Below are positions 51,109 to 57,414 of a stretch of 64,000 nt of DNA, piece after piece. The notes under the pieces were generated by a model. That model ran no database searches. It had not been told where the DNA came from and worked only from the letters and a program-made list of their open reading frames with translations. The translations under genes and the position numbers were made by a program. Each line of letters opens with the position of its first letter. The stretch's first letter is position 1. The stretch comes from Hydrogenophaga sp. (GTDB lineage: Bacteria > Pseudomonadota > Gammaproteobacteria > Burkholderiales > Burkholderiaceae_C): the NCBI GenBank assembly GCA_030682835.1, contig JAUXNG010000005.1:1-64000 (forward strand). The letters are read 5' to 3'.

Positions 51109-52095
51109 TCAGCCCGCCACCCGGCCCGCCGCCCGTTCGGCGATGGCTGCGAAGTCTGCCGGCAGCGGGTGCAGGTCCAGGCGCCGGCCCGCCTTGAGCA
51201 CCTGGCTGGGCACGTCGTGGCCGATCAGCCCGGGCAGGCGGGCGGCGGCGGCCAGCAGGCGCTCCAGGTCCACACCGGTGTCGTAGCCCATCAGGGCCAG
51301 CGCGTGGGCGATTTCCTCGGTGCACACATTTCCGGACGCACCGGGCGCGTAGGGGCAGCCGCCGATGCCGCCGACCGAGGCGTCGAAGCGGTCGGCGCCG
51401 GCGTCGATCGCCGCCAGCACATTGGCCAGGCCCATGCCCCGGGTGTTGTGGAAGTGCAGCGTGAGTTCGGTGTCGGGCCAGCGCTCGCGGAACGCCTGGG
51501 TGAGGGCGTTCACCTGCGAGGGGAAGGCCATGCCCGTGGTGTCGCACAGGGTCACGCCGCGGGCACCGAGTTCGTCCACGAAGCGGCGGCACCAGTCCAG
51601 CACCGCCGGCGTGGGTACATCGCCTTCCATGGGGCAGCCGAAGGCGCAGGACAGCGACACATTGAGGGCCACCCCGCTCGAACGTACGGCCTGCGCCACC
51701 TCCGCCAGCGCGGCGAAGGACTGGGCGCGCGTCATGCGCAGGTTGGACAGGTTGTGGCTCTCGCTGGCCGACATGACCAGGTTCAGCTCGTCGGCGCGCG
51801 ATTCCACGGCGCGCTCGGCGCCACGCACATTGGGGACCAGGGCGCTGTAGACCACGCCGGGGGCCCGGCGGATCTCCCTCAACACCTGCTCGGCATCGCG
51901 CAGCGCGGGGATGGCCTTGGGCGAGACGAAGGCCGTCACTTCGATCTTGGACAGGCCGGCGTCGGACAGGGCATTGACCAGCGCGATCTTCTGGTCCGTC
52001 TCCACGAAGGCCAACTCGGCTTGCAGCCCGTCGCGCGTGCCTACCTCCTGCAGGTGGATGCGGCGCCCGGCGCCCTGCCAAAGCGATCCACTCAT
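51109..52095 (-). CDS. HMG-CoA lyase family protein (candidate citramalyl-CoA lyase)
   Basis: A 328-residue TIM-barrel lyase. Family motifs are LQEVGTRDGLQAE (catalytic Arg-Asp), SLSCAFGCPMEGDV, metal-ligand HFHNTRGMGLAN, and the mobile loop with catalytic Cys, GGIGGCPYAPGASGNVCTEEI. Compared with true HMG-CoA lyase, the HDT of HCHDTYG is HNT and flanking residues differ, so the substrate may not be HMG-CoA. The (R)-citramalyl-CoA lyase of Chloroflexus belongs to this family. Its ATG overlaps the stop of the CaiB-type gene (ATGA), so the two work together. Confidence 0.85.
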   Translation of the reverse strand: MSGSLWQGAGRRIHLQEVGTRDGLQAELAFVETDQKIALVNALSDAGLSKIEVTAFVSPKAIPALRDAEQVLREIRRAPGVVYSALVPNVRGAERAVESRADELNLVMSASESHNLSNLRMTRAQSFAALAEVAQAVRSSGVALNVSLSCAFGCPMEGDVPTPAVLDWCRRFVDELGARGVTLCDTTGMAFPSQVNALTQAFRERWPDTELTLHFHNTRGMGLANVLAAIDAGADRFDASVGGIGGCPYAPGASGNVCTEEIAHALALMGYDTGVDLERLLAAAARLPGLIGHDVPSQVLKAGRRLDLHPLPADFAAIAERAAGRVAG

Positions 52096-53294
52096 GCCAC
52101 CACCTTCGATTCGCGCAGCTGTGCAATGGCCTGGGGGTTCAGGCCCAGTTCGCCGAGCACGGCATCGGTGTCCTCGCCCAGCCGGGGCGAGGCGCTGCGA
52201 ACCTGGCCGGGTGTGCCCAGCAGCTTGGGCACCACGCCGGGCACCTCGACCAGGTGGCCGTCGCGGGTGATCTGGGTCAGGATCATGTCGCGGGCGCGGT
52301 AGTGCGGGTCTTCGACGATGTCCTTGGCCGTGTACACGCGCCCGGCGGGCACGCGGGCCTCGCCCAGGGCCGCCAGAACCTCGGTGGAGCTGCTTGTGCG
52401 CGTCCAGGCCTCGATGGCGGCGTCCAGTTCCTGGACCCGGCTGACGCGCCCGGCGTTGTTGGCCAGGCCGGGGTCGTTGCCCAGGTCGTCCCGCCCGATC
52501 AGCTGCATCAGCCGGCGGAAGATGCTGTCACCGTTGCCGGCGATGAGCACCACGCCGTCCTGGCAGCGGTAGGCATTCGATGGCGCGATGCCCGGCAGCG
52601 CCGAGCCCGCGGGCTCGCGGATCGCGCCAAAGGCGCTGTATTCCGGGATCAGGCTTTCCATCACGTTGAACACGGCTTCGTTCAACGCCACGTCGATCAC
52701 CTGGCCCTTGCCCCCGTGCACGTTGCGGTGGTGCAGGGCGGTGAGCACGCCGATGGTGCCGTGCAGCGCCGCCAGCGTGTCGCCAATGGAAATGCCGCAG
52801 CGCACCGGCACCTGGCCGGGCTCGCCGGTGAGGTGGCGCAGGCCCCCCATGGCTTCGCCAATGGCGCCAAAGCCGGGCAGGTCGCGGTAGGGGCCGGTCT
52901 GCCCGTAGCCTGAAATGCGCAGCATCACCAGGCCGGGGTTGTCGCGCGAGAGCGTCTCGTAGTCCATGCCCCAGCCCTCCATCGTGCCCGGGCGGAAGTT
53001 TTCCACCAGCACGTCGGCCTGGGCGATCAGCTGCCGGGCGATGGCCTGGCCCTCGGGGTGGCGCAGGTCCAGCGCGATCGAGCGCTTGTTGCGCGACTGC
53101 ACCTGCCACCAGACCGAGGTGCCGTCCTGCAGCAGGCGCCAGTTGCGCAGCGGGTCCCCCGTGCCCGGCGGCTCGATCTTGATGACGTCGGCGCCGAAGT
53201 CGCCCAACGTCTTGCCGACGAAGGGGCCGGCAATGAGCTGGCCCATCTCGATGACGCGCAGCCCCTGCAAGGCGCCCGGCTGAAGTGGTGGCAT
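52092..53294 (-). CDS. Class III (CaiB/BaiF) CoA-transferase
   Basis: A 400-residue CoA-transferase starting at ATG 53294. Motifs are LIAGPFVGKTLGDFGADVIKIEPPGTGDPLR, SRNKRSIALDL, VLVENFRPGTMEGWGMDYETL and the catalytic Asp172 in ISIGDTLAALHG. Such enzymes move CoA from succinyl-CoA or acetyl-CoA to another carboxylate. It is translationally coupled to the HMG-CoA-lyase-like gene and preceded by the Bug gene 20 bp upstream. I infer that it activates the hydroxy-dicarboxylate that the lyase then cleaves. Confidence 0.92.
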   Translation of the reverse strand: MPPLQPGALQGLRVIEMGQLIAGPFVGKTLGDFGADVIKIEPPGTGDPLRNWRLLQDGTSVWWQVQSRNKRSIALDLRHPEGQAIARQLIAQADVLVENFRPGTMEGWGMDYETLSRDNPGLVMLRISGYGQTGPYRDLPGFGAIGEAMGGLRHLTGEPGQVPVRCGISIGDTLAALHGTIGVLTALHHRNVHGGKGQVIDVALNEAVFNVMESLIPEYSAFGAIREPAGSALPGIAPSNAYRCQDGVVLIAGNGDSIFRRLMQLIGRDDLGNDPGLANNAGRVSRVQELDAAIEAWTRTSSSTEVLAALGEARVPAGRVYTAKDIVEDPHYRARDMILTQITRDGHLVEVPGVVPKLLGTPGQVRSASPRLGEDTDAVLGELGLNPQAIAQLRESKVVA

Positions 53295-53314
53295 GGTCAA
53301 GGCGGGTCTCCCGT

Positions 53315-54280
53315 TCAGTCGATGGTGGCGCCGGATTCCTTGACGATGCGGGCCCAGCGCGGCAGGTCCTCGCGCACGAGCTGGGCGAACTGGTCCGGCG
53401 TGGACTTGAAGGGCTCGCAGCCCACGGCGGCCAGGCGCTCCTGCACCTCCGTGGAGTCCAGCGCCTTGGCGATCTCGGCGTTCAGCTGCGTGATGATGGC
53501 GCGCGGCGTGCCGGCCGGTGCGAACACACCGTACCACGGCGTCGCGCCGAAGCCGGGCACCGTTTCACCAATGGTGGGGGCATCCACCGCCGGCAGGCGC
53601 TTGGGGTTGACCACACCCAGCACCTTCATGCGGCCCGAGCGGATGAAGGAGATGGAAGACGGCAGGCTCTGCACCGACACCTGCACCTGGCCGGCCACCA
53701 CGTCGGTGGCGGCAGCGGCGGCCCCCTTGTAGGGAACGTGCGTCAGATCGATGCTGGTGGCCTTGCCCAGCATCTCGCCGATCAGGTGGTTCAGCGTGCC
53801 GTTGCCGGCCGAGCCGATGTTGATCTTGCCCGGCTGCTGCTTGGCCAGCGACACCAGTTCGGCGACGTTCTTGGCCGGGAAGGCCGGGTTGGCCACCAGC
53901 ACGTAGCCGGCCGTGGCCACACTGCCCACGGCTTCGAAATCCTTCAGCGGGTCGAAGCCCGTGCTCCTGTACAGCGAGGGGTTGATGACCATGGAGCTGT
54001 CGGCGGTCAGGATCAGCGTGTAGCCGTCCGGGCGGCTCTTGGCTGCGGCCACGGTGCCGATGTTGCCGCCGGCGCCCACGCGGTTTTCCACCACGACGTT
54101 CTGGCCGAGCTGCTCGCCCAGCTTCTGCGCGATCACGCGCGCGATGGTGTCGTTGGCGCCGCCGGCGGCGTGGGGCACGATCAGGGTGATGGGCCGGTTG
54201 GGGTACCGGTCCTGCGACAGGGCGGGAACTGCGGCTAGCGAAAGGGCCAGGGCCAGCAGGGTGCGGCGTTTGGTGAACAT
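53315..54280 (-). CDS. Bug/TctC family periplasmic substrate-binding protein
   Basis: A 321-residue protein with a signal peptide (TLLALALSLAAVPALSQD, cleaved around 22). The mature part begins RYPNRPITLIVPHAAGGANDTIARVIAQKLGEQ and contains VVENRVGAGGNIGTVAAA, both Bug-family signatures. It sits between leuD (24 bp) and the CoA-transferase (20 bp), all on the minus strand. Its ligand is therefore probably the di- or tricarboxylate consumed by this operon. No TctA/TctB genes are adjacent. Confidence 0.92.
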   Translation of the reverse strand: MFTKRRTLLALALSLAAVPALSQDRYPNRPITLIVPHAAGGANDTIARVIAQKLGEQLGQNVVVENRVGAGGNIGTVAAAKSRPDGYTLILTADSSMVINPSLYRSTGFDPLKDFEAVGSVATAGYVLVANPAFPAKNVAELVSLAKQQPGKINIGSAGNGTLNHLIGEMLGKATSIDLTHVPYKGAAAAATDVVAGQVQVSVQSLPSSISFIRSGRMKVLGVVNPKRLPAVDAPTIGETVPGFGATPWYGVFAPAGTPRAIITQLNAEIAKALDSTEVQERLAAVGCEPFKSTPDQFAQLVREDLPRWARIVKESGATID

Positions 54281-54304
54281 GGTTTGTCTCCTCTTGGGGG
54301 TGGG

Positions 54305-54943
54305 TCAGTTGAAAAGCCAGGGGCTGGCCAGGCGGTGTTGCGCCTCAAAGGCACGGATGCGGGTTGTCTTCTGCAGGGTCAGGCCGATGTCGTCCAGGCC
54401 CTGCACCAGGCGCTGCTTGCGCGAAGCGTCGATGCTGAAGCTGGTGCACAGGCCCGTCGACGAGCGCAGGGTCTGCGTCGGCAGGTCCACGCTCAGCGTG
54501 AAACCCGGGTGGTCGTGCACGGCCTGGAACAGCTGGTCGATCTGGGCGGTCGGCAGCACGATGGGCAGCAGGCCGTTCTTGAAGCAGTTGTTGAAGAAAA
54601 TGTCGGCGTAGCTGGGGGCCAGCAGCACCCGGATGCCATGGTCGGCCAGTGCCCAGACCGCGTGCTCGCGGCTGGAACCGCAGCCGAAGTTCTCCCGCGT
54701 CAGCAGGATCTGCGCACCCGCGTAGCGGGCCTGGTTCAGGGAGAAGGCCGGGTTGCGCAGCCGCCCGGACACGTCCTGCCCCGGCTCGCCGCGGTCCAGG
54801 TAGCGCCACTCGTCGAACAGGTTGTCGCCAAACCCGGTGCGGCTGATGGACTTCATGAACTGCTTGGGGATCAGCGCGTCGGTGTCCACGTTGGCCCGGT
54901 CCACGGGCACCACCAGCGATTGCAGTTGGTCGAAGGGTTTCAT
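54305..54943 (-). CDS. 3-isopropylmalate dehydratase small subunit family (LeuD-like)
   Basis: A 212-residue swivel-domain subunit starting at ATG 54943, which overlaps the leuC-like stop. Motifs are [57 protein letters not shown] and [13 protein letters not shown]. With LeuC it forms a hydro-lyase that isomerises isopropylmalate or hydrates citraconate. Neighbours are catabolic and no leuB lies nearby, so I think this is a paralogue of the biosynthetic enzyme. Confidence 0.9.
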
Positions 54944-56394
54944 GCGATCTCCTGCGCGGGCAGTTGGACGGGTGGCAGGTCTTCCACGCGGGCCAGGTGG
55001 CCGGCGATGGCCGCGGCCGCTGCCAGCGCAGGGCTGAGCAGGTGGCTGCGCCCACCAGGCCCTTGCCGGCCCTCGAAATTTCGGTTGCTGGTCGAGGCGC
55101 AGCGCTCGCCCGGCGACAGCCGGTCGTCGTTCATGCCCAGGCACATTGAGCAGCCGGGCTCGCGCCACTCCAGTCCCGCCTCGGTGAAGATGCGGTCCAG
55201 GCCTTCGGCTTCGGCCGCGGCCTTCACCAGGCCGGAGCCGGGCACCACCAGGGCCTGCACCACGCCGGGCGCCACGCGGCGCCCGCGCACCACGGCGGCG
55301 GCGGCGCGCAGGTCTTCCAGACGGGCGTTGGTGCATGAGCCGATGAACACCTTGTCGATGGGCACCTCGCGCATGGGTGTGCCGGGCTGCAGGCCCATAT
55401 AGGCCAGCGCGGCCTGCATGCCGGCGCGGCGCACCGGGTCGGCTTCCTGCGCCGGGTCGGGCACGTGGCCGTCCATGGCCACCACCATGTCGGGCGACGT
55501 GCCCCAGGTCACCATGGGCTGCACATCGCGCGCGTCGATCGAGACCACCCGGTCGAACTCGGCGCCTTCGTCGCTCACCAGCGTGCGCCAGGCCGCCACG
55601 GCCGCCTCCCACTGTGCGCCCGACGGCGCCTTTGGACGGCCCGCCAGGTAGTCGATGGTGGTCTGGTCCACCCCCACCAGGCCCACGCGGGCACCGGCCT
55701 CGATGGCCATGTTGCACACCGTCATGCGGCCTTCCATGCTCAGGGAGCGGATGGCGCTGCCGGCAAATTCGATCGCATGGCCATTACCGCCGGACGTGCC
55801 CAGCACGCCGATCAGGTGCAGCACCAGGTCCTTGGCGGACACCCCGGGCGCCAATACGCCGTTGACCTGCACCAGCATGCGTTTCATGGGGCGAAGGGCC
55901 AGGCACTGGGTGGCCAGCACATGCTCCACGTCGGACGTGCCGACGCCGAAGGCCAGGGCACCGAAGGCGCCGTGGGTGCTGGTGTGGGAGTCGCCCGCCA
56001 CCACGGTCATGCCCGGCAGGGTGGCGCCCTGCTCGGGCCCGACCACATGGATGATGCCCTGTGTGCGGCTGCCCAGGCCGTGGAAGGTGATGCCGAATTC
56101 CTGGCAGTTGCGGTCGAGCTGGCGCACCTGGGCCCGCGAGAGCGGGTCCTGGATGGCTTCTGTCGATGCGCGCTGCGCCGCGGTGGTGGGCACGTTGTGA
56201 TCCGCCACGGCGATCACCGTCTCGGCCCGCCAGGGCTGGCGGCCCGACAGGCGAAGGCCCTCGAAGGCCTGGGGGCTGGTGACCTCGTAGACCAGGTGGC
56301 GGTCCACGTAGATGAGGCACTCGCCGTCCTCGCTTGCGTCGACGAGGTGGCTTTGCCAGAGTTTGTCGAACAGGGTTCGCCGGGCGTGTGTCAT
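54940..56394 (-). CDS. 3-isopropylmalate dehydratase large subunit family (LeuC-like)
   Basis: A 484-residue aconitase-superfamily subunit. Motifs are [14 protein letters not shown], the [30 protein letters not shown] region, cluster cysteines in [21 protein letters not shown] and [32 protein letters not shown]. It is slightly longer than E. coli LeuC (466). It heads the unit leuC-leuD-bug-caiB-lyase, with a LysR gene 120 bp upstream and two palindromes in the gap. A citraconate or related hydratase role is inferred from the partners. Confidence 0.92.
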
Positions 56395-56462
56395 GGGGGC
56401 GGTGCGGGCCGGTGGGTGGAATGGCTCGCAGTCTAGGAGCCCCCCCCGCGCGGCAGAAGCGT

Positions 56463-56477
56463 TGCTTGGGCAAAGCA
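56463..56477. promoter_or_regulatory. Palindrome 1 upstream of leuC-like gene
   Basis: TGCTT-GGGCA-AAGCA, an imperfect LysR-type dyad 69 bp before the leuC ATG. Confidence 0.45.
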
Positions 56478-56479
56478 GG

Positions 56480-56496
56480 TTTCGCCAACGGCGAAA
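56480..56496. promoter_or_regulatory. Palindrome 2 (LysR-type T-N11-A box)
   Basis: TTTCGCC-AAC-GGCGAAA, a perfect 7-bp dyad with the T-N11-A spacing of LysR operators. It sits 2 bp from palindrome 1, in the gap between the LysR stop and the leuC start. Confidence 0.6.
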
Positions 56497-56514
56497 GCGG
56501 CGGGGTTCCCCTCT

Positions 56515-57414
56515 TCAGCCCACCCCGGCGCGCAGGTGGTCGAAGAGGCTGCGCATCGGGCGCGCCAACGCGCTGAAGTCGCGCGCGCCCAGCAGCAGTT
56601 CGCGTTCCACCCAGGCATCGCTCAGATCGATCACTCGCAGACCCATGGCACGGGCCAAGGGTTGGGCGGCCGCCACGGGCAGCACGGCGATGCCCAGACC
56701 GGCGCGCACCATCTGGCACATGGCGTCGAAGCTGCGCACATGAATGCGGATGCGCAGCGGCTGGCTCAGTTGCCCGCTCTCCAGCGCCAGCCGCTGGGCC
56801 AGCGAGGTCGATTGCGACAGGCTCACGAAGTCGTATTGCACCGCCTCGGCAAACTCGGCTTTGCGGCGGCGCGCCAGCGCATGGCCCGGCGGCACCACCA
56901 GCACCAGCCGGTCGCGGCGGTAGAGCGCGGTCTGCAGGCCGAGTTCTGGCGTGCGGTCGGCGAAGATGCCGAGCTCGGCGCGGCCGTCCAGCACGGCCAG
57001 CACCACTTCGCGGCTGTCGGCCTCGTTCAGCTCGATGCGCAGGCCGGGGCGCATGCCCACGAACCCGGCCAGATCCGTCGGCAGGAACTGCGTGATGGCC
57101 GAGGTGTTGGCCCACAGGCGGACCTCGCCGGTGACGCCCCTGGCATGGTCGGACAGGTCGCCGCTCATCTGGTCCACGTCGTTCAGGATGCGCTGCACGT
57201 GCCGGTGCAGGGCCTCGCCGGCCAGGGTGAGCTTCACGCCCCGGGAATGGCGCTCCAGCAGCGACACGCCAAAGGCGAGTTCGAGATCGGCCATGCGCTT
57301 GCTCGCCGCGCCAATCGCCAGCCGGGCAAGCTCGGCCCCCTGGCTGATGCTGCCGGTGCGCGCCACCAGGTTGAACAGGGACAGCGAGACGAGGTCGATG
57401 CGGTGCAGGTTCAT
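56515..57414 (-). CDS. LysR-type transcriptional regulator of the leuCD-CoA module
   Basis: A 299-residue regulator starting at ATG 57414. The N-terminal winged HTH is LSLFNLVARTGSISQGAELARLAIGAASKRMADLELAFGVSLLERHSRGVKLT (about 10-65), then the effector-binding domain (about 90-290). It lies upstream of and in the same direction as the leuC-like gene rather than divergent, with two palindromes in the 120-bp gap. The effector may be the operon's substrate or intermediate. Confidence 0.9.
   Translation of the reverse strand: MNLHRIDLVSLSLFNLVARTGSISQGAELARLAIGAASKRMADLELAFGVSLLERHSRGVKLTLAGEALHRHVQRILNDVDQMSGDLSDHARGVTGEVRLWANTSAITQFLPTDLAGFVGMRPGLRIELNEADSREVVLAVLDGRAELGIFADRTPELGLQTALYRRDRLVLVVPPGHALARRRKAEFAEAVQYDFVSLSQSTSLAQRLALESGQLSQPLRIRIHVRSFDAMCQMVRAGLGIAVLPVAAAQPLARAMGLRVIDLSDAWVERELLLGARDFSALARPMRSLFDHLRAGVG

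Follow-up and report, generated by a model that had tools for sequence, protein, structure and literature searches.

What is the role of leuCD-like genes that share an operon with a coenzyme A (CoA) transferase and a lyase instead of with leuB? We address this question for a six-gene unit of Hydrogenophaga sp. at positions 51109-57414, minus strand, of the window, by which we mean the whole 64,000-nucleotide stretch analysed (contig JAUXNG010000005.1, positions 1 to 64,000). In reading order, the unit encodes a LysR-type regulator, LeuC, LeuD, a Bug periplasmic solute-binding protein, a class III CoA-transferase and a lyase of the 3-hydroxy-3-methylglutaryl-CoA (HMG-CoA) lyase family. Judged by its sequence and its relatives, the unit appears to be a real, conserved catabolic module, and we lean, on balance, towards citraconate and/or (R)-citramalate as its substrate, with acetyl-CoA and pyruvate as the end products.

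The first-pass annotation of this DNA had described six tightly packed genes on one strand, which is borne out by the coordinates and Pfam domains given below, by 4-base ATGA overlaps between the genes for LeuC and LeuD and for CoA-transferase and lyase, and by intergenic gaps of 120 bases (LysR to LeuC), 24 bases (LeuD to Bug) and 20 bases (Bug to CoA-transferase).

The LeuCD paralogue and leucine synthesis

LeuC (54940-56394, minus strand; 484 residues; Pfam Aconitase, 4e-178) and LeuD (54305-54943, minus strand; 212 residues; Pfam Aconitase_C, 5e-34) both exceed the cut-offs of the NCBIfam profiles for this hydro-lyase, leuC with 715.7 bits (cut-off 560.25) and leuD with 249.1 bits (cut-off 116.25). 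The first-pass annotation had argued against leucine synthesis from the lack of a nearby leuB and had proposed a genome search for a second leuCD next to that gene. Such a copy is present: in the source genome (G000; 3.6 Mb, 104 contigs, 87% complete), contig C56 carries a second leuC followed by leuD, leuB and asd, so that the leuCD of the window is not the only one. We also surveyed 22 genomes, picked for carrying the lyase. Fifteen of them have a full-length LeuC of the type found in the cluster, all 15 keep another LeuC with 62-67% identity, and this other copy adjoins leuB in each of the 10 genomes out of these 15 in which it was looked at.

The argument against leucine synthesis is strengthened by phylogeny. 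A tree was built from 44 LeuC rows, a non-random sample of the loci collected; in it, the cluster type formed one clade of 15 rows (bootstrap/SH-aLRT 100/98; SH-aLRT, Shimodaira-Hasegawa-like approximate likelihood ratio test), and its sister was a group of 17 rows (94/90) with leuB in the examined stretch for 16 of the 17. The remaining 12 paralogues, with 46-61% identity, lay outside both clades. With no leuB in the unit and a LeuC that branches apart from the leuB-linked enzymes, the window's LeuCD does not group with the leucine-biosynthetic type. Four positions separate the two clades: Ala-133, directly before GDSHTSTHG, in 14 of 15 cluster rows (Cys in 17 of 17 leucine rows), Cys-164 in 15 of 15 (Thr in the 17), Tyr-36 in 14 of 15 (His in the 17) and Met-294 in 15 of 15 (Gln in the 17). 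As far as the alignment goes, these changes are specific to the clade and sit near conserved segments.

The small subunit points in another direction, as the window LeuD keeps a 14-residue stretch that is also found in the genome's leucine LeuD, and isopropylmalate is therefore a possible substrate. A region of the small subunit sets substrate choice in the Arabidopsis isopropylmalate isomerase (PMC7308503), and our guess is that the kept stretch corresponds to it. On this explanation, the leucine pathway would run in reverse: starting from 3-isopropylmalate or isopropylmaleate, LeuCD would form 2-isopropylmalate, whose CoA ester would be cleaved to acetyl-CoA and 2-oxoisovalerate. The cell would thereby take up and salvage isopropylmalate, or the product of its dehydration, that other microbes secrete. 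We consider such a salvage quite unlikely. By our own reasoning, (2S)-isopropylmalate does match (R)-citramalate spatially, and the lyase is distantly related to isopropylmalate synthase, but the clade-specific changes near conserved LeuC segments would be unexpected if the substrate had stayed the same. Literature searches with narrow phrases, which are weak evidence, found no such route.

The position of LeuC in the tree also bears on a smaller substrate. The same module might act on maleate, which LeuCD would hydrate to D-malate, with D-malyl-CoA then cleaved to acetyl-CoA and glyoxylate. The gene content is compatible with this scheme to an equal degree, the Enzyme Commission (EC) name 2.8.3.20 covers (R)-malate beside (R)-citramalate, and maleate hydratase activity is described for a LeuC-type enzyme of Methanocaldococcus (both PMC8307300). 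We nevertheless rate it as unlikely. The cluster LeuC is sister to the leucine-type LeuC, which naturally acts on a branched substrate, and does not group with the distant paralogues of 46-61% identity; moreover, no ring-cleavage gene is among the six genes, the genome not having been surveyed for a maleate-forming pathway.

The CoA-transferase and lyase pair

The last two genes of the unit encode the CoA-transferase (52092-53294, minus strand; 400 residues from the ATG; Pfam CoA_transf_3, 3e-125, 418.7 bits) and the lyase (51109-52095, minus strand; 328 residues; Pfam HMGL-like, 3e-49). Locus counts were made from tblastn matches in the 80 nearest loci, which come from named genomes, and in 40 further loci from a scan of 150 genomes of the family; the two sets partly overlap, with at least six of the 40 (L151, L152, L153, L156, L160 and L161) on contigs equal in length to those of members of the 80. 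Of the 80 nearest loci, 79 have the CoA-transferase gene on the same strand as the lyase gene and no more than 400 bases from it, the exception being L065 with a distance of about 1.1 kb; of the 40 further loci, 34 have it within 400 bases. This grouping goes beyond chance, and the pair is the common core of the module.

The transferase combines the CoA_transf_3 domain with Asp-172, numbered from the ATG at 53294, and so belongs to class III. The first-pass annotation had pointed to this residue correctly; position 172 is Asp in 80 of 81 aligned sequences and a gap in the remaining one, and we take it to be catalytic from what is known of formyl-CoA transferase.

For the lyase, the scan of the 150 family genomes yielded 53 matches of at least 290 bits in 49 genomes, with the next match at 240 bits. 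We compared 106 lyases, in which Arg-21, Asp-22, Glu-52, Asp-185, His-214, His-216, Cys-247 and Asn-256 are each kept in 105 or 106 sequences, the rest being gaps; the roles of these residues in the metal site and in catalysis are assumed from human HMG-CoA lyase. As would be expected of an (R)-citramalyl-CoA lyase from the HMG-CoA lyase family, the window lyase has the HMGL-like domain with metal-site and catalytic residues intact. No characterised Chloroflexus lyase was found among its matches in the PDB. The nearest solved relative, PDB 6nds, has the HNTRG motif and is titled 3-hydroxy-3-methylglutaryl-CoA lyase, which may be an automatic name.

Canonical HMG-CoA lyases share the fold family and the metal-site residues with the window lyase, and differ from it in sequence, descent and neighbourhood. 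In a lyase tree of 128 rows (a quick search with SH-aLRT support only, and with a long-branch warning), 14 canonical rows stood apart from 114 rows including the window, across a branch with a length of 1.86 changes per column and a support of 100; the 114 consist of the 106 compared rows, L149, L150 and a second HNTRG group with six rows. Position 145 is Asn in 105 of the 106 lyases and Arg in all 14 canonical ones, position 217 is Asn in 101 and Asp in five (Asp in all 14 canonical), and position 219 is Arg throughout the 106 (Tyr in 13 and Trp in one of the canonical). The motif thus reads HxH[ND]TR in 106 of 106 members of the window group, whereas it is HxHDTY in 13 and HxHDTW in one of the 14 canonical enzymes, and none of these 14 has the transferase within 400 bases. 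The window lyase, with Asn-145, Asn-217 and Arg-219, accordingly falls outside the canonical HDTYG clade. The canonical locus L174 has the neighbours of a leucine-degradation set, namely acyl-CoA dehydrogenase, carboxyl transferase, enoyl-CoA hydratase and methylcrotonyl-CoA carboxylase alpha, and at L165 one neighbour is an enoyl-CoA hydratase.

The first-pass annotation had also noted HNT in place of HDT, which is present at residues 216-218 of the window lyase. As the mark of a new activity, HNT did not stand: five of the 106 lyases carry HDT, among them L141 and L145 directly beside LeuCD. Because these kin carry HDT, HNT is a tendency and not diagnostic. Across the alignment, the Arg that follows H[ND]T appears to be the steadier mark; the Bacillus subtilis HMG-CoA lyase 1ydo also has HDTRG. 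The second HNTRG lyase group (L169, L181, L182 and L183), with 45-46% identity to the window lyase, adjoins a class III CoA-transferase with 29-32% identity to that of the window.

These findings bear on the catabolism of leucine or 3-hydroxy-3-methylglutarate, in which the pair would be an HMG-CoA lyase and a succinyl-CoA:HMG transferase. The NCBIfam hydroxymethylglutaryl-CoA lyase model matches the window lyase with 340.8 bits (cut-off 246), although this model seems broad, and the matches of the transferase include structures of succinate-HMG CoA-transferase. No other HMG-CoA lyase was found in the 87% complete draft of G000, where the other two HMGL-like genes are, by best model, an isopropylmalate synthase and a 4-hydroxy-2-oxovalerate aldolase. 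An argument from this absence that the lyase does double duty was rejected as unsafe, given the incompleteness of the draft and a truncated gene: contig C52 stops within a carboxyl-transferase gene whose 77% identical counterpart belongs to a leucine-degradation locus, and the missing lyase may be an artefact of the draft. A separate lyase with 36-43% identity is present in 14 of 17 LeuCD-carrying genomes (two of them with partial LeuC), the exceptions being G000, its near twin G150, and G154. Enzymes of the aconitase family bind their substrates through a hydroxyl and a carboxylate on the same carbon; malate-type acids therefore fit, and 3-hydroxy-3-methylglutarate, whose hydroxyl carbon bears no carboxylate, does not, which would leave LeuCD without a role. 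We regard HMG catabolism as improbable.

The 4-hydroxy-2-oxovalerate aldolase gene lies on contig C13 (L092:1-14000) in an aromatic meta-cleavage cluster, whose other members, named by eye, are an extradiol dioxygenase, a semialdehyde dehydrogenase, hydratases, an acetaldehyde dehydrogenase and a Bug protein.

LeuCD among the relatives

LeuCD is distributed more narrowly than the pair. Fourteen LeuC matches were found among the 80 nearest loci, of which L061 (26% identity, far from the unit) was dropped; the remaining 13 include L040, with partial LeuC and fragmentary LeuD, and L025, whose LeuC runs off the contig. Most carriers have LeuCD upstream of the transferase, whereas L025, L141, L145 and L147 have it downstream of the lyase. 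The order on plasmid pBB2 of Cupriavidus necator N-1 is LysR, CaiB, lyase, leuC, leuD, Bug and a 3-hydroxyisobutyrate-dehydrogenase-like gene (L238:10123-11040); the LeuC of this plasmid is 72.8% identical to cluster LeuC and 71.1% to leuB-linked LeuC, and it was assigned to neither clade. A scan of the 150 family genomes for LeuC gave five full-length matches of at least 68%, four of them beside the lyase (the window, G135, G032 and G121) and the fifth in G044. Placed on the lyase tree, the LeuC state needs 11 changes, with or without 12 undecidable rows.

Several observations weigh against a dedicated module of hydratase, transferase and lyase. LeuCD stands beside the pair in just 13 of the 80 nearest loci, with too little flanking sequence in nine of the other 67, and in three of the 40 further loci (L141, L145 and L147). 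The transferase is not within 400 bases of the lyase in six of those 40, of which L126 and L148 have less than 250 bases of upstream contig. In G044, some 8 kb separate cluster-type LeuCD from the genes for transferase and lyase, and LeuCD there directly follows genes for a cytochrome P450 and a Fer2 reductase (L276:4483-9134), which perhaps carry out an oxidation that yields the LeuCD substrate. G090 has a partial LeuC (70% over 360 residues), the sole LeuC match of that genome, and no lyase of the high-scoring group. The lyase tree carries the warning that long branches meet. Finally, L128 has a leuB-linked leuCD about 2 kb from the unit, and nearness alone is therefore no proof.

The last case, together with the absence of LeuCD from most relatives, would also suit spare leucine-synthesis genes lying by chance beside a CoA-transferase/lyase operon. 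This explanation strikes us as very improbable: LeuC forms a separate clade, leuB is lacking, the genes overlap by ATGA, and two gene orders share the same LeuC clade. We instead favour LeuCD as a dedicated catabolic paralogue coupled to the lyase, because its LeuC sequences form a single clade, the genes are placed on either side of the pair, and another LeuC is kept in 15 of 15 genomes. Across the loci, the pair is common and LeuCD is an accessory add-on.

In loci without LeuCD, the gene next after LysR often encodes a transporter, Bug or of the major facilitator superfamily (MFS). A gene recurring between LysR and transferase in eight such loci was considered as a replacement hydratase and rejected, as both examples scanned with Pfam proved to be MFS transporters. 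In Paraburkholderia phenazinium (L040:7706-8734), which retains the transferase and lyase beside a partial LeuC and a fragmentary LeuD, the LeuCD genes seem to be decaying. Another LeuCD paralogue (LeuC 52%) occurs at L219:270-8109, a locus in which Bug was matched three times and neither the transferase nor the lyase was matched.

Proposed pathway and known systems

From these data, we infer every reaction, substrate, stereochemical course, transport step and regulatory role of the following scheme. The unit would serve specifically to break down a small cis-dicarboxylate. The Bug protein (53315-54280, minus strand; 321 residues; Pfam TctC, 5e-70) would pass the acid on to a permease of the TctAB type whose genes lie outside the unit. 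Citraconate would be hydrated by the LeuCD paralogue, giving (R)-citramalate, the class III transferase would place CoA on this acid, with succinyl-CoA or acetyl-CoA as the probable donor, and the HMG-CoA-lyase-family enzyme would cleave (R)-citramalyl-CoA to acetyl-CoA and pyruvate. This sequence fits the order of hydratase, CoA-transferase and lyase in the first-pass annotation. The LysR protein, encoded by the first gene of the unit (56515-57414, minus strand; 299 residues; Pfam LysR_substrate, 2e-33, and HTH_1, 2e-13) and matched in 71 of the 80 nearest loci, would sense the acid or a pathway intermediate. Where LeuCD is lacking, as in most relatives, the substrate of the pair would be the hydroxyacid itself.

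The presence of LeuCD constrains the chemistry of this scheme. With LeuCD acting earlier in the pathway, the CoA ester would be a 2-alkylmalyl-CoA and the products of the lyase acetyl-CoA and a 2-oxoacid; because LeuCD needs a 2-hydroxydicarboxylate, citraconate and (R)-citramalate would be the best reading. By our own comparison, (R)-citramalyl-CoA, (2S)-isopropylmalyl-CoA and (S)-HMG-CoA have the same spatial arrangement at the stereocentre, which would fit a lyase derived from the HMG-CoA lyase family. The sequence evidence points to a branched substrate and would not by itself choose between citramalate and isopropylmalate. We favour citramalate because both later steps correspond to known enzymes for it: CoA transfer and cleavage with (R)-citramalate are described under EC 2.8.3.20 and 4.1.3.46 (PMC8307300). 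For the first step, LeuCD of Escherichia coli converts citramalate to citraconate (PMC5882075, PMC6561320).

In the literature searched, which included few subscription journals, the portions of text available gave no account of the gene set or of such a citraconate route, nor any bacterial route for citraconate or (R)-citramalate, and the available text of PMC12290011, PMC6689899, PMC9007349 and PMC4213383 holds no description of the unit. The enzyme kinds and each single step are known; within that literature, their combination looks new. The citraconate/(R)-citramalate scheme further suggests wrong names for many proteins now annotated as HMG-CoA lyase or LeuC; lyase matches of at least 290 bits number 53, in 49 of the 150 family genomes.

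Several known systems can be set beside the unit. Isopropylmalate isomerase LeuCD belongs to the same protein families as the window LeuCD, which differs from it by its separate clade, the lack of leuB and its place adjoining CoA-transferase and lyase. Compared with a tripartite tricarboxylate transporter, the unit has the Bug protein without a TctAB partner, and TctA permease genes occur only elsewhere in the genome, at three places, one of them at C4:71851, about 8 kb past the window. Chloroflexus has a class III succinyl-CoA:(R)-citramalate CoA-transferase and an (R)-citramalyl-CoA lyase of the HMG-CoA lyase family. The window pair would follow the same logic of CoA transfer and then cleavage, reactions listed as EC 2.8.3.20 and 4.1.3.46 (PMC8307300). 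In contrast to Chloroflexus, the pair of the window stands in an operon with a LeuCD paralogue, Bug and LysR, and in Burkholderiales.

The itaconate route proceeds through (S)-citramalyl-CoA by way of a CitE-type lyase. Its cluster, ict-ich-ccl of Pseudomonas, Paraburkholderia and Cupriavidus, likewise converts a C5 branched dicarboxylate via citramalyl-CoA to acetyl-CoA and pyruvate (PMC12290011). The itaconyl-CoA hydratase and CitE-type lyase families are not among the six genes, the rest of the genome not having been searched for them. When equipped with the itaconate cluster, Pseudomonas putida could use (S)-citramalate and mesaconate, whereas neither (R)-citramalate nor citraconate was used (PMC9875883). 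If the citraconate/(R)-citramalate reading is true, the operon would provide named genes for an (R)-side route in Burkholderiales that parallels the (S)-side route for itaconate.

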